Shown piece after piece: positions 58,216 to 63,027 of a stretch of 64,000 nucleotides of DNA (position 1 is the stretch's first letter; each line of letters starts with the position of its first letter). The translations under genes and the position numbers were made by a program. The stretch is from an uncultured Microbacterium sp. (GTDB taxonomy: Bacteria > Actinomycetota > Actinomycetes > Actinomycetales > Microbacteriaceae): assembly GCA_913774665.1 (NCBI GenBank), contig CAJYHN010000002.1:372001-436000 (forward strand). Reading direction: 5' to 3'. The notes beneath the pieces are model-generated. The model saw nothing but the letters and a program-made list of their open reading frames with translations, was not told the DNA's origin and did not search any database.

Positions 58216-58677
58216 CTAAGGAGCGCAATCGGCGTAAACAGCACTCGCCGATGCGGTCCATTTTCCGATCGAAGCCGTGACCGTATAGGTGTAGTTCGTC
58301 TCGTCCGAGAGGCCGTAATCATCGGCGGAATAGTCGTACCGGTTCCCTGTCCACGTCGGGCCCCTGGAGCTCACCGTCACGACAGACCCGTCGGGGTTCT
58401 GACGCGTGAGGGTAAACGTCGGGAGAACTCCCTGCCACGCTCTCGACGCCCCAGAAGTCGGATCCGCCGACCACTGAACGTTCGCCACACAGTGGCCAAC
58501 CCCGTTCGACATCCTGAGATTCACGGGTGGCAGGACTTGGCCAGTAGTCACGACATTCCCCGCCACATTTTGCTGCGCCGTGAAAGATGCGCCGCTCACC
58601 GATGGTGTGCCGATGGCGGCGCTCAAGAGCACCATCACGATGAGCGCGCTCAATTTCCTCAACGGAAGTCCTCTCAT
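58216..58677 (-). CDS. Exported beta-sandwich protein with SipW-like signal peptide
   Basis: 153-aa exported protein. N-terminal signal helix LSALIVMVLLSAAIGTPSV is followed by SGASFTAQQNVAGNVVTTGQ, close to the alternate signal-peptide pattern of the three exported proteins at 59578-61195. The mature part looks fibronectin type III-like, with two cysteines (GHCVANVQW, ADCAP) that could form a disulfide. ATG at 58677 is chosen; earlier in-frame sequence is antisense noise. Could be a surface-fibre component; function not proved. Confidence 0.7.
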   Translation of the reverse strand: MRGLPLRKLSALIVMVLLSAAIGTPSVSGASFTAQQNVAGNVVTTGQVLPPVNLRMSNGVGHCVANVQWSADPTSGASRAWQGVLPTFTLTRQNPDGSVVTVSSRGPTWTGNRYDYSADDYGLSDETNYTYTVTASIGKWTASASAVYADCAP

Positions 58678-58877
58678 CAACACCGGTGACAGAGGCAGTC
58701 TTGTGCGACCGGGATCTCCAGGCACAGCGCAACGTGACGCCTGAGCGTGCAGTTCGACGCTGTCCCTCAACGAATACCGACCTCGCGACCGAACGCCAAC
58801 CTCGTTACGGTGCCACCGCAGTCGAAGCCTCCGCACACGACCGCTCGGCTACCTCTGTGGGCACACCCGAAGAATCC

Positions 58878-59577: not shown

Positions 59578-60177
59578 ATGTCCCAGCCCACCGAACCCAC
59601 CCGCTCCGTCGTCGAGCCCGCACCCCGCCACCGCAAGGCGAAGGCGATCCTCGCCATCGCCGCCGGAACCGCCCTGCTGCTCGGCGGCGGCGGCACCTAC
59701 GCCTACTGGTCGACCGAGAAGGCGCTCACCGCCACGCAGGTCAACTCCGGAAACCTCGACCTCGGCCTCGGGGCGGGCACATGGAAGCTCAAGGGCGCCC
59801 TTCAGTCCGCCCCGACCGATCTCACCAGCCTCACCAACGTGAAGATCGTGCCCGGCGACGTGCTCACCCTGACCCAGCCGCTCACCGTGACGCTCACCGG
59901 CGACACCCTCGTCGCCAACCTCAAGGCAGAGCTGGGCTCGACCTTCAGCGCGAGCGTGCTCGGGCAGAACCTCGACGTCAAGCTCACGATGCCCGCCAAC
60001 TACGGCACGTCCACCAGCGACACGAGCTACCGTCTGACCTCGGCCGACTCGGGTACGCCGAACGCGACTCTCACGATCACCTTCCGGGGCGGCACGAGCC
60101 AGCAGACGGCGGTGAACACGAGCGTCAATCTCTCGGACGTGAAGTTCAGCCTCTCGCAGGCCTTCCCCACTCCGTGA
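59578..60177 (+). CDS. Alternate-type signal peptide exported protein
   Basis: 199-aa exported protein. Basic N-terminus, hydrophobic helix ILAIAAGTALLLGGGGTYAYW, then STEKALTATQVNSGNLDL, the pattern of the 'alternate signal peptide' family of actinobacteria processed by a SipW-type signal peptidase, related to TasA and camelysin of Bacillus. The mature protein is rich in Thr, Leu and beta structure. Preceded by AGGAG at good spacing. First of four genes ending in the peptidase fusion. Confidence 0.85.
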   Translation: MSQPTEPTRSVVEPAPRHRKAKAILAIAAGTALLLGGGGTYAYWSTEKALTATQVNSGNLDLGLGAGTWKLKGALQSAPTDLTSLTNVKIVPGDVLTLTQPLTVTLTGDTLVANLKAELGSTFSASVLGQNLDVKLTMPANYGTSTSDTSYRLTSADSGTPNATLTITFRGGTSQQTAVNTSVNLSDVKFSLSQAFPTP

Positions 60178-60698: not shown

Positions 60699-61195
60699 AA
60701 CCGATCGACAAGAGCCTCTGGTCGGCCGGGGTCGTCGCCGCGGCGGCGCTGCTGCTCATGACCCCGGCGAGCACGCCGGCGTCTGCCGCCTGGCAGACGA
60801 GCACCACCGTCTCGGTGACGACGCTCGACGCGGGCCGGCTCGCCGCACCCTCCGCGCCAACGTGCCAGAACGCGAATCGCGTCCTCCCGATCGTCGTCAT
60901 CACCTGGACCAAAGTGCCGAACGCCCTCGAGTACGAGGTCGTGACCCTCTCGTCCGGCAGCACCTCCTCCGTCCTCGCGACGGTCTCGGCCTCGTCGGCG
61001 TCCGGTCCGACGCTCTCGGCGGAACTGACCGGAACCCTTCTCAACGGCGTGATCTCCCTCCTGACGGGCGACCCTCAGATCGCCGTGGTCGCGAAGAACG
61101 ACACCTGGCGCTCGAACCCGAGCAGCTCGCGCACCGTCGTCCCCGCCGGGTTGAGCGGCTACCTGCTGGGCGGTGTCAAATGCCAGGGGACCTGA
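60695..61195 (+). CDS. Third alternate-type signal peptide exported protein, FN3-like
   Basis: 166-aa exported protein: helix SAGVVAAAALLLMTPASTPA then SAAWQTSTTVSVTTLDAGRL. The mature part has a fibronectin III-like run (RVLPIVVITWTKVPNALEYE) similar to the protein at 58216. ATG overlaps the preceding stop (ATGA). Two cysteines (PTCQNA, VKCQGT) may pair. Confidence 0.8.
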   Translation: MKPIDKSLWSAGVVAAAALLLMTPASTPASAAWQTSTTVSVTTLDAGRLAAPSAPTCQNANRVLPIVVITWTKVPNALEYEVVTLSSGSTSSVLATVSASSASGPTLSAELTGTLLNGVISLLTGDPQIAVVAKNDTWRSNPSSSRTVVPAGLSGYLLGGVKCQGT

Positions 61196-62430
61196 CACTC
61201 CGCCGGGACCGCCGCGCACCGGCGCCGGCCACCCTGCGCCCCCGCGCCTGGACGCGCGCCCGCGCGATCACGGGCACCCTCGTCCTGGTCGCGGTGTCCC
61301 TCTTCGCCCTCGTCACCGTGGTGATTCCCCTCATCCTCGGGGCGCAGACCTACACCGTGCTGACCGGAAGCATGCAGCCCGGCATGCCGCCCGGCACCCT
61401 CATCGCCGTCAGGCCCGTCGCCATCGACCAGGTCCGCGTCGGAGATGTCATCACCTACCAGATCCGGTCGGGCGACCCCGCGGTCGTCACGCATCGCGTC
61501 GTGGGCACCACGAGCAGTACGGGCGGTGAACGCCTGTTGATCACGCGCGGGGACGCCAACGACCGTGACGACCCCCCGGTCCAGTCGGAGCAGCTGCGAG
61601 GAAGCGTCATCCTCGCCCTTCCCTACCTGGGCTATCCCGGTGCCGTCTTCGGTGGGCAGGAGCGTGGAGCCGTCATCGCCGCGGCCGGTGTGGCGGTCGT
61701 CGGATACGGCCTGGCCCTCCTCGCTTTCGACGCCATCCGGGCACGGCGCCGCAAGACCGCAGCCCACGCCGCGGGTGCCCTCGTGGCCGCTCTCGTTCTC
61801 GCGCCCATGCTGATGCCCGCACCCGCCTCGGCGATGGAGCGGGCGGATGCCACGGCGCCCGACCGCCTGCTCGTCAGCGTCGACGGTGTGCGCTTCGTCG
61901 CCGACGGCTCCGTCACCCCGTTCGACGGGATCGACGATCTGGTGCCCGGACAGACGGTCTCCGCCACGCTGTGGGTCCGCAACGCGAGTGCCGACGCGGC
62001 ACGCGCAGCACTCCGTGTGAGCGCGGCTCCGGTGTCAGCCGCGGCGACCGACACCGCCGTCGCCGCGGCGCTGCAGCTCGTCGTCGCCTCTTCACCCGTG
62101 CCCGCGGGCCAGGAATGGGTGAGCGAGGTCATCCCCGCCGGGCAGACGCTCCGGCTGGAGGTCGGACTGCGCATGGATGCCGCTGCCGGAAACACCTCGC
62201 GCGCCGGGGCGGCGATCATCCTGCCCGCGATCAGCCTGACGCAGGCGGTCGCGGACCCCGCACCGCCCAGCTCCGCAGCTCCCGCTCCCGCTTCGCCCGA
62301 CGCGACGCGACCGAGCGGGACGCTTCCCGCCACAGGCGCCGACGTGCCCCTCGTTGCGCTCATCGGCGCGGCCGTCGTCGCGCTCTCTCTCGGCCTGCTG
62401 ACGAGGCGGCCACGTGCGCGGCGAAGGTAA
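61180..62430 (+). CDS. SipW-type signal peptidase I fused to an LPXTG-anchored domain
   Basis: 416-aa membrane protein. Residues 28-52 are membrane helix 1, then the catalytic part: Ser64 (TGSMQPGM), His105 (VVTHRVVG) in place of the bacterial-type lysine, and Asp125 (GDAN), the Ser-His type of SipW and ER peptidases. Helix 2 (AVIAAAGVAVVGYGLALLAF) and a basic loop follow. Residues 190-216 then look like a fresh signal peptide (AALVLAPMLMPAPASA), leading to an extracytoplasmic domain and a C-terminal sorting signal LPATG at 382-386, hydrophobic helix and RRPRARRR. The reading frame is continuous, so it appears to be a true fusion. ATG at 61180 overlaps the previous stop by 16 bases. No sortase is in the window. 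Confidence 0.85.
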   Translation: MPGDLTLRRDRRAPAPATLRPRAWTRARAITGTLVLVAVSLFALVTVVIPLILGAQTYTVLTGSMQPGMPPGTLIAVRPVAIDQVRVGDVITYQIRSGDPAVVTHRVVGTTSSTGGERLLITRGDANDRDDPPVQSEQLRGSVILALPYLGYPGAVFGGQERGAVIAAAGVAVVGYGLALLAFDAIRARRRKTAAHAAGALVAALVLAPMLMPAPASAMERADATAPDRLLVSVDGVRFVADGSVTPFDGIDDLVPGQTVSATLWVRNASADAARAALRVSAAPVSAAATDTAVAAALQLVVASSPVPAGQEWVSEVIPAGQTLRLEVGLRMDAAAGNTSRAGAAIILPAISLTQAVADPAPPSSAAPAPASPDATRPSGTLPATGADVPLVALIGAAVVALSLGLLTRRPRARRR

Positions 62431-62451
62431 GGATTGCCTGTCTACCAGGAA

Positions 62452-62500
62452 TTTAGCCGAGCCTCATCTTGCTTGCGGAATGCCCGTGCCTGAGTAGCGT
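62452..62500 (+). promoter_or_regulatory. dps promoter with possible DtxR/IdeR-like box
   Basis: TTGCGG at 62473-62478 and TAGCGT at 62495-62500, 16-base spacing, fit a promoter about 40 bases before dps. Just upstream, 62452-62470 matches the complement of the DtxR/IdeR consensus in its AGGCT core and CTAA arm only, so an iron-responsive box is possible but weak. GAAGGAG precedes the ATG. Confidence 0.4.
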
Positions 62501-62541
62501 TTCCTCCAACAGACGTCATTCGCTGCGAGAAGGAGCACCAC

Positions 62542-63027
62542 ATGAGCACCGTCCAGACCCCCGCCGCCACCACCGTCGACCCGACGATGGCCGCCGGCAC
62601 CGCCCAGTTCCTCTCCCCCGTCGTCATCGGACTCGAGGCCCTCGTCGTCAACGGCAAGCAGGCGCACTGGCACGTGCGCGGCTCCAACTTCATCGGCGTG
62701 CACGAGCTGCTCGACTCGGTCGTCGCTCACGCCCAGGAGTGGGCAGACCTGGCCGCCGAGCGCATCGTCGCCCTGGGCCTTCCCATCGACTCGCGCCTGT
62801 CGACCGTCGCGGCGAAGGCGAAGGCCACCGAGGTCCCCGCCGGTTTCGCGCAGTCCGACGTGGTCATCCGCGCCGTGATCGCCGACATCGACGCCGTGCT
62901 CGTCGACATCGAAGCCGCCATCGAGGGTCTTGACGAGATCGACATGTCCAGCCAGGACGTGGCGATCGAGATCAAGCGCGGCCTCGACAAGGACCGCTGG
63001 TTCCTCTTCGCGCACCTCGCCGCGTAA
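62542..63027 (+). CDS. dps: Dps-family ferritin-like DNA-protection protein
   Basis: 161-aa four-helix protein that forms a 12-mer storing iron and shielding DNA. Ferroxidase ligands are visible: His in QAHWHVRG, and Asp/Glu in LDSVVAHAQEWADLAAERI. The N-terminal extension lacks the usual lysine cluster, so DNA binding may be weak. ATG follows GAAGGAG. Confidence 0.95.
   Translation: MSTVQTPAATTVDPTMAAGTAQFLSPVVIGLEALVVNGKQAHWHVRGSNFIGVHELLDSVVAHAQEWADLAAERIVALGLPIDSRLSTVAAKAKATEVPAGFAQSDVVIRAVIADIDAVLVDIEAAIEGLDEIDMSSQDVAIEIKRGLDKDRWFLFAHLAA

Follow-up and report, generated by a model that had tools for sequence, protein, structure and literature searches.

The window analysed here, a 64,000-nucleotide stretch of DNA from an uncultured Microbacterium sp., carries a gene in which a SipW-type signal peptidase is joined in frame to a second domain, a predicted beta-sandwich, that ends in a sorting signal (Table 1). 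The gene stands behind three genes for exported proteins, of which the second and third overlap by 4 bp (ATGA); between the third and the fusion gene the overlap is 16 bp. Bacillus is the best-known source of TasA-type fibres, and a TasA-type operon is recognised by a protein with an alternate-type signal encoded near sipW, as the TasA-like protein is here. Motifs of one kind, read by eye, occur in the three upstream proteins, as AYW in the TasA-like protein and as AFW and AAW in the other two. The TasA-like protein and the product of the second gene are probable SipW substrates, and the third appears from its sequence to be a substrate-like exported protein. On the opposite strand (58219-58836, -) lies a gene for an exported-looking protein, possibly a further SipW substrate, in which GASFTAQ follows a hydrophobic segment and Pur_ac_phosph_N is matched weakly (E 0.021, below the cut-off). 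A Dps-type gene lies downstream of the fusion gene, at 62542, and the interval between the two (62428-62541) holds GGATTGCCT...TTTAGCCGAGCC..., a stretch that recurs in 11 of 15 fusions, the window included, and that may be an iron-regulator box, which it resembles.

Table 1. Features of the fusion gene and of the genes preceding it (positions in the window; residues are those of the fusion protein).
Feature	Position	Strand	Basis and remarks
TasA-like protein, alternate-type (SipW-type) signal	59578..60177	+	TIGR04089 121.2 bits (cut-off 60); TIGR04088 23.2 bits (cut-off 19)
Second small exported protein, AFW after signal helix	60186..60698	+	No family match; similar gene in the same place in operons of fused relatives
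Third small exported protein, AAW after signal helix	60695..61195	+	Weak TIGR04089 (E 0.07, under cut-off); similar gene in the same place in relatives
SipW - beta-sandwich - sorting-signal fusion gene	61180..62430	+	416 aa; single stop-free frame, ATG at 61180, TAA stop
SipW/ER-type signal peptidase with both flanking membrane helices (residues 22-190)	61243..61749	+	TIGR02228, AlphaFold, Foldseek; S64, H105, GDAN 124-127
Basic loop (residues 187-195)	61738..61764	+	Predicted cytoplasmic, n-region of internal signal; positive-inside rule
Internal signal-peptide-like helix ending PAPASA (residues 196-218)	61765..61833	+	Predicted cut after A218; A218 invariance
Predicted beta-sandwich (Ig-like or pilin-like), unnamed actinobacterial family (residues 230-357)	61867..62250	+	AlphaFold
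Sorting signal: LPATG, hydrophobic helix, basic tail (residues 382-416)	62323..62427	+	TIGR01167; L[PA]xTG in 15/15 fusions

The preliminary description of this DNA had proposed that one frame joins a SipW-type Ser-His peptidase to a domain with an LPATG signal, and profile searches bear this out at both ends of the protein. TIGR02228 matches residues 36-167 with 85.1 bits (cut-off 51.85), and the sorting-signal model TIGR01167 scores 17.7 bits on the whole protein and 20.3 bits on its C-terminal part (cut-off 15.9). Pfam S26 (20.9 bits, cut-off 22.9) and Gram_pos_anchor (PF00746; 14.7 bits on the whole protein and 17.1 on the C-terminal part, cut-off 20) stay below threshold. The catalytic residues S64 and H105 and the GDAN motif are invariant in 14 of 14 aligned fusions, so that the enzyme has the Ser-His pair typical of TIGR02228-type peptidases at its predicted active site. 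Judged by these matches, and by a score of 68.7 bits against a cut-off of 190 for the Bacillus SipW equivalog NF046067, the peptidase is SipW-type and distinct from its Bacillus counterpart.

A hydrophobicity scan marks residues 34-52, 165-183, 194-212 and 389-407, with RARRRK at 187-192 and LPATG at 382-386; it also flags residues 285-303, which we did not count as a membrane helix because AlphaFold places them, as a helix and a strand, inside the sandwich. An AlphaFold model of the full-length protein, run with a 62-row alignment, has helices at 22-52, 160-190 (block means 76-80), 196-211 and 391-409, a confident peptidase after the first of these, a low-confidence junction at 211-226, and a flexible linker between the sandwich and the final helix. 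The order envisaged at the outset, of helix, outward-facing catalytic domain, helix, basic loop, helix, outside domain and sorting signal, agrees with both the hydrophobic stretches and the modelled helices. The basic loop is placed in the cytoplasm by the positive-inside rule, and since this predicted topology also leaves the end of the peptidase in the cytoplasm, the helix that comes next, past the loop, would be able to serve as an internal signal peptide.

The sandwich itself is modelled with confidence (block means 87-98 over residues 231-360), and more poorly when the C-domain is run alone (mean pLDDT 77.4), while the arrangement of the halves with respect to each other is unreliable at a pTM of 0.48. 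Foldseek relates the peptidase half to the human signal peptidase complex paralogues (E 4.0e-6 and 6.8e-5). For the sandwich it returned weak Ig-like or pilin-like matches, such as FimG (E 2.4e-3), and none that reached E 0.001. The C-domain is predicted to be a beta-sandwich, putatively of an Ig type. Homology of the C-domain to TapA or TasA was sought and not found: neither protein appears among the 50 fold matches listed in each of two Foldseek searches, nor among the four matches at E <= 1 in a sequence-profile search of the PDB. The nearest approach to TasA-type proteins, among the fold matches listed, was to the Pyrobaculum bundling pili (rank 49, E 0.048), which are named beside TasA in the paper on TapA (PMC10151520). 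A scan of 25 members of the C-domain family with Pfam and NCBIfam yielded no domain beyond sorting signals and scattered weak matches.

A joined frame of this kind might be an error of sequencing or assembly, and relatives with two genes and a frame break at the junction would speak for it. We searched 366 same-genus genomes with a C-domain profile and obtained a match at E <= 0.001 in 47; because the profile includes the sorting signal, the weakest of these may be mere sorting signals. A gap in the scores separates strong matches (E <= 6.6e-19, the cut being chosen at the gap) from the next (3.4e-14). Among the 17 strong places, 15 are in-frame fusions, the window included, one is split over two contig ends (G044), and one is frame-broken (G305). 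The break in G305 (L057 / L113) falls at the junction of peptidase and C-domain, its C-domain frame has no ATG before the sandwich, and it may be either natural or an error. Against this one case stand the 15 in-frame genes, two further lineages that were apparently fused independently (below), and purifying selection, which acts on both halves of the fusion: over seven pairs, dN/dS is 0.06-0.19 for the peptidase and 0.16-0.36 for the sandwich, and, on few sites, 0.19-1.08 for the loop and internal signal and 0.21-1.01 for the linker and sorting signal. An artefact is thereby ruled out for the group, and we consider it exceedingly improbable that an error joined the two genes here. All 15 fusions of the Microbacterium clade also retain L[PA]xTG, as LPxTG in nine and LAxTG in six.

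Separately encoded versions of the same two parts, for which the preliminary description had suggested a search, proved common. We compared the best 80 of 210 named loci, ranked by match to the whole fusion alignment, a ranking that favours loci with a C-domain. Twelve of these 80 are fused (L151-L160, L162 and L206 from Myceligenerans), one lies at a contig end (L161), 41 have a separate C-domain gene directly after sipW, and 26 have none there at the threshold used. The separate pairs come from genera that include Arthrobacter, Glutamicibacter, Cellulomonas, Nocardioides, Rhodococcus, Aeromicrobium and Rathayibacter. The two genes overlap by 4 bp in 34 of these 41 pairs, with a start at -1 to the stop (ATGA, GTGA or TTGA); for this count, which includes many related loci, the start was the one closest to the end of sipW, at a distance of at most 40 bases. 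Since a start codon arises wherever TGA is preceded by A, G or T, what deserves attention in this count is the one shared frame relation.

Gene order differs within the Microbacteriaceae, where we chose 20 neighbourhoods (L123-L142), made up of 11 of the 32 weaker genus matches listed and nine of the 61 family matches besides that of the window. Here the C-domain gene precedes sipW in 16, with a second copy further on in L135, and follows it in three (L128, L129, L137); L132 has sipW and, at the threshold used, no C-domain. A TasA-like match lies near in all 20.

The separate C-domain proteins carry ordinary-looking signal peptides: an A-x-A motif lies within residues 16-60 of 35 of the 41, against a mean of 26.8 in shuffled sequences, and none of 1000 shuffles reached 35. 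At their C-terminal ends, 10 have LPxTG, 11 have LAxTG and 20 have neither; by eye, some of these 20 show an LGxTG-like sequence, some only a helix, and two from Rhodococcus neither of these. Wall anchoring is therefore not universal in the family. Taken together, the comparisons identify the C-domain as a conserved actinobacterial family, as yet unnamed, that on the evidence of gene sequence and order is tied to SipW, a point that goes beyond the preliminary description.

The fusion appears to have arisen more than once. In a quick tree of 143 peptidase rows (one row having been dropped for length, and six loci having given none), the fusions of Microbacterium form one branch of 17 rows with the split and the frame-broken relative (SH-aLRT 98), and this branch adjoins eight unfused Cellulomonas rows. 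Over a SipW tree of 119 rows that takes in further genomes and omits six near-duplicates as well as 29 rows from the other branch of peptidases, the fused or unfused label needs three changes when the split and frame-broken rows are left unlabelled, and five when they are counted as not fused (five being also forced by well-supported branches). The three changes fall at the Microbacterium clade, the Myceligenerans gene L206 beside the unfused L200 of Cellulomonas denverensis (SH-aLRT 98), and L263 beside the unfused L262 of its own genus (SH-aLRT 99). Both other fusions have an A-x-A at the junction (ARA in L206, ANA in L263). These trees are quick ones, with support by SH-aLRT only and some weak backbone branches, and they suggest that neighbouring, often overlapping genes for SipW and the C-domain were joined about three separate times. 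Repeated joining of one gene pair suggests a functional linkage, although the overlap of the genes would also make fusion mechanically easy.

SipW-like peptidases are joined to other domains as well. A second SipW-like subfamily forms one tree branch of 26 rows (24 distinct genes, SH-aLRT 96; L163, L168, L173, L174, L176, L180, L183-L186, L195, L198, L199, L202-L205, L209-L213, L221, L225; second peptidase gene), the early-stopped row of L187 having been dropped by a length filter. In every member the peptidase continues into a long tail, which has a helix resembling a signal, in many cases a motif of the AAFTD or AYWTD type, and an FnIII/Ig-like or unassigned domain; among the 24 scanned, TIGR04088 was matched at E <= 0.05 in three (in L199 above the cut-off) and fn3 in three. 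By sequence, these genes look as if a peptidase had been fused to a SipW substrate. In two same-genus genomes a SipW-like peptidase is fused to a different, longer exported domain (L027, L029; L047, L048), which ends in LAATG in L027 and in LAPTG in L029. Another gene (L030:1450-2631, L049) adds to such a peptidase a domain that begins AWAAW and by eye resembles the third exported protein of our operon, and in a last case (L261:4142-5296, -) the C-terminal tail is weakly similar to an Hpt phosphotransfer domain (E 0.0074, under the cut-off).

The preliminary description had pointed to a cut after an ASA motif near residue 217; the motif is present, and its position needs adjusting, as ASA ends at residue 218 and the N-terminus created by a cut would be M219. 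A-x-A motifs occur anywhere within residues 196-229 in 14 of 14 aligned fusions, with a shuffled mean of 12.6 and 334 of 2000 shuffles reaching 14, and because the stretch is rich in alanine, such counting lies within chance and says little about cleavage. We relied instead on position: A218 is the only invariant column between residues 191 and 229 in the 14 of 15 fusions that were aligned, while position 216 is alanine in 12 of these 14 and threonine and serine in the others. The internal helix, moreover, is positioned like the N-terminal signal of separately encoded C-domains. We also considered that the C-domain might be translated separately from a start at the junction, and rejected this as a general explanation because two of the 15 fusions have no start codon of any kind there.

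With these observations in hand, we favour the reading that the fusion is a natural precursor of two products in one, which belongs to a TasA-type fibre system and whose sandwich would be anchored as a TapA-like partner of the fibre. The N-terminal half would be the operon's SipW peptidase, removing the special signals of the fibre-type proteins encoded upstream, and the second half would be the partner of the system, a beta-sandwich with an internal signal peptide of its own. Once the chain had been inserted through the membrane it would be cleaved behind A218, with the ordinary type I signal peptidase as the likeliest agent. The freed sandwich would be held in the membrane by its C-terminal helix until a sortase cut at L(P/A)xTG and linked it to the wall; there, like TapA in Bacillus, it would either nucleate the fibres or hold them. 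Such a fusion would fix a one-to-one supply and the co-localisation of the two products, which relatives would obtain from adjacent, mostly overlapping genes for sipW and the C-domain. We counted in favour of this reading the 15 in-frame fusions among 17 strong matches, the low dN/dS of both halves, the three changes on the SipW tree, the invariance of A218, the A-x-A at the junction of both other fusions, the L[PA]xTG kept in all 15 fusions, the TasA-like neighbours in all 20 chosen neighbourhoods, the 34 overlaps among 41 pairs, the precedent of TapA in Bacillus, and a class E sortase encoded in the genome (239.2 bits, cut-off 160), which is one of three sortase matches there, the others being a class F enzyme (177.9 bits, cut-off 166) and one under every class cut-off. 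Counted against it were the 20 of 41 separate proteins that lack L[PA]xTG, the 26 loci, among the best 80 of 210, with no C-domain gene directly after sipW at the threshold used, the chance level of A-x-A counts in the fusions, and the failure of the searches to find homology of the C-domain to TapA or TasA. On balance we give it a probability of about 0.5. Of its elements, the fusion, its conservation, the selection on it, the pairing of the genes and their repeated joining are read from the sequences, the topology and the sandwich fold are model predictions, and the cut, the enzyme responsible for it, the anchoring in the wall and the likeness of role to TapA are inferred.

The main rival supposes that the internal helix stays uncut and that sortase links the whole chain, so that SipW would be tethered to the wall beside its substrates. 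The chain has every part needed for this, L[PA]xTG is kept in every one of the 15 fusions, and the presence of A-x-A alone is within chance; yet A218 does not vary amid a stretch that otherwise varies freely, the internal helix sits where separate genes have their N-terminal signal, and linkage to the wall would presumably strain an enzyme held in the membrane by several helices. We think a tethered SipW unlikely. A similarly low standing attaches to the proposal that SipW cuts its own chain, in cis or in trans, as a self-processing polyprotein, a proposal that shares every other step with the two-in-one precursor, so that the odds of the two overlap. By the predicted topology, the internal cut would lie on the side of the membrane that the active site faces, and the SipW of B. 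subtilis is described as processing both TasA and TapA (PMC4292775). The internal signal, however, has none of the AYW, AFW or AAW motifs of the operon's other signals and is ordinary in form, like those of the separate relatives, and the genome also encodes an ordinary type I signal peptidase (127.9 bits, cut-off 47) and a second TIGR02228-type enzyme (L240:3250-3816; 69.2 bits, cut-off 51.85), the latter missed by the protein-level search. For a signal of the ordinary kind, the ordinary type I peptidase is the simpler cutting agent, and self-cleavage in the form first put forward is not supported.

The C-domain might also be a regulator or receptor of SipW, such as a pro-domain or a part for substrate docking or fibre sensing, and no fibre anchor at all. 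Its family keeps its association with SipW more steadily than it keeps any single type of anchor, and all three fusions are to SipW; against this, the C-domain is encoded before sipW in 16 of the 20 chosen Microbacteriaceae neighbourhoods, and the sorting signal would carry a C-domain, once cut free, away from the enzyme. We regard such a role as rather less probable still. A bolder combination of these ideas would make the protein a self-processing surface polyprotein, in which SipW frees a wall anchor at the internal signal and so locks processing capacity and anchor number at one to one; it would have arisen about three times from the adjacent, mostly overlapping pair, with the second actinobacterial peptidase subfamily likewise fused to a substrate-like domain. 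This, too, we consider doubtful.

If the two-in-one precursor is the correct reading, it would predict a physical or stoichiometric link between a signal peptidase and a fibre anchor, and would connect SipW processing with sortase anchoring, export steps that are usually treated apart. The fusion could also serve as an uncomplicated model in which to study bacterial internal signal peptides. Among the titles and abstract openings listed in our literature search, from whose coverage most subscription journals fall outside, there was no paper on a SipW-LPXTG fusion or on a partner family like the C-domain.

Several known systems share features with this locus. SipA of Streptococcus pyogenes, a homologue of signal peptidases that is needed for building surface fibres, resembles the peptidase half in fold (4n31, Foldseek E 4.3e-4), and is a stand-alone protein serving sortase-built pili. 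Class E sortases are described as displaying LAXTG proteins (PMC5148588), in keeping with the class E enzyme of this genome and with the LAxTG found in six of 15 fusions and 11 of 41 separate relatives, whereas the motif of the window's own protein is LPATG. In Clostridium perfringens, the sipW-bsaABCRSD operon likewise serves a surface protein whose secretion and polymerisation depend on SipW, and it includes two accessory secreted proteins, BsaB and BsaC (PMC7395162); the available excerpt of that report describes no fusion, predicts BsaA to lack an LPXTG-like motif and notes no difference in a srtB mutant.

A further parallel is the tapA-sipW-tasA operon of B. subtilis. TapA has a V-set Ig fold and is about as scarce as SipW, and the tapA and sipW genes overlap by their stop and start codons, according to the TapA paper (PMC10151520). 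Here too SipW is encoded beside a TasA-like protein and a partner with a predicted sandwich fold, and in relatives the pairing of the two genes is clear. Unlike the Bacillus operon, the partner is fused to SipW and equipped with a sorting signal, and the order is substrates, SipW and partner; among the matches listed, the C-domain showed neither a sequence relation nor a confident fold relation to TapA or TasA, so that the likeness is one of analogy. A TapA equivalent in Actinobacteria did not come up among the literature matches listed, and we suggest that the family described here, a partner of SipW that has been joined to the enzyme about three times, is a candidate for that place.
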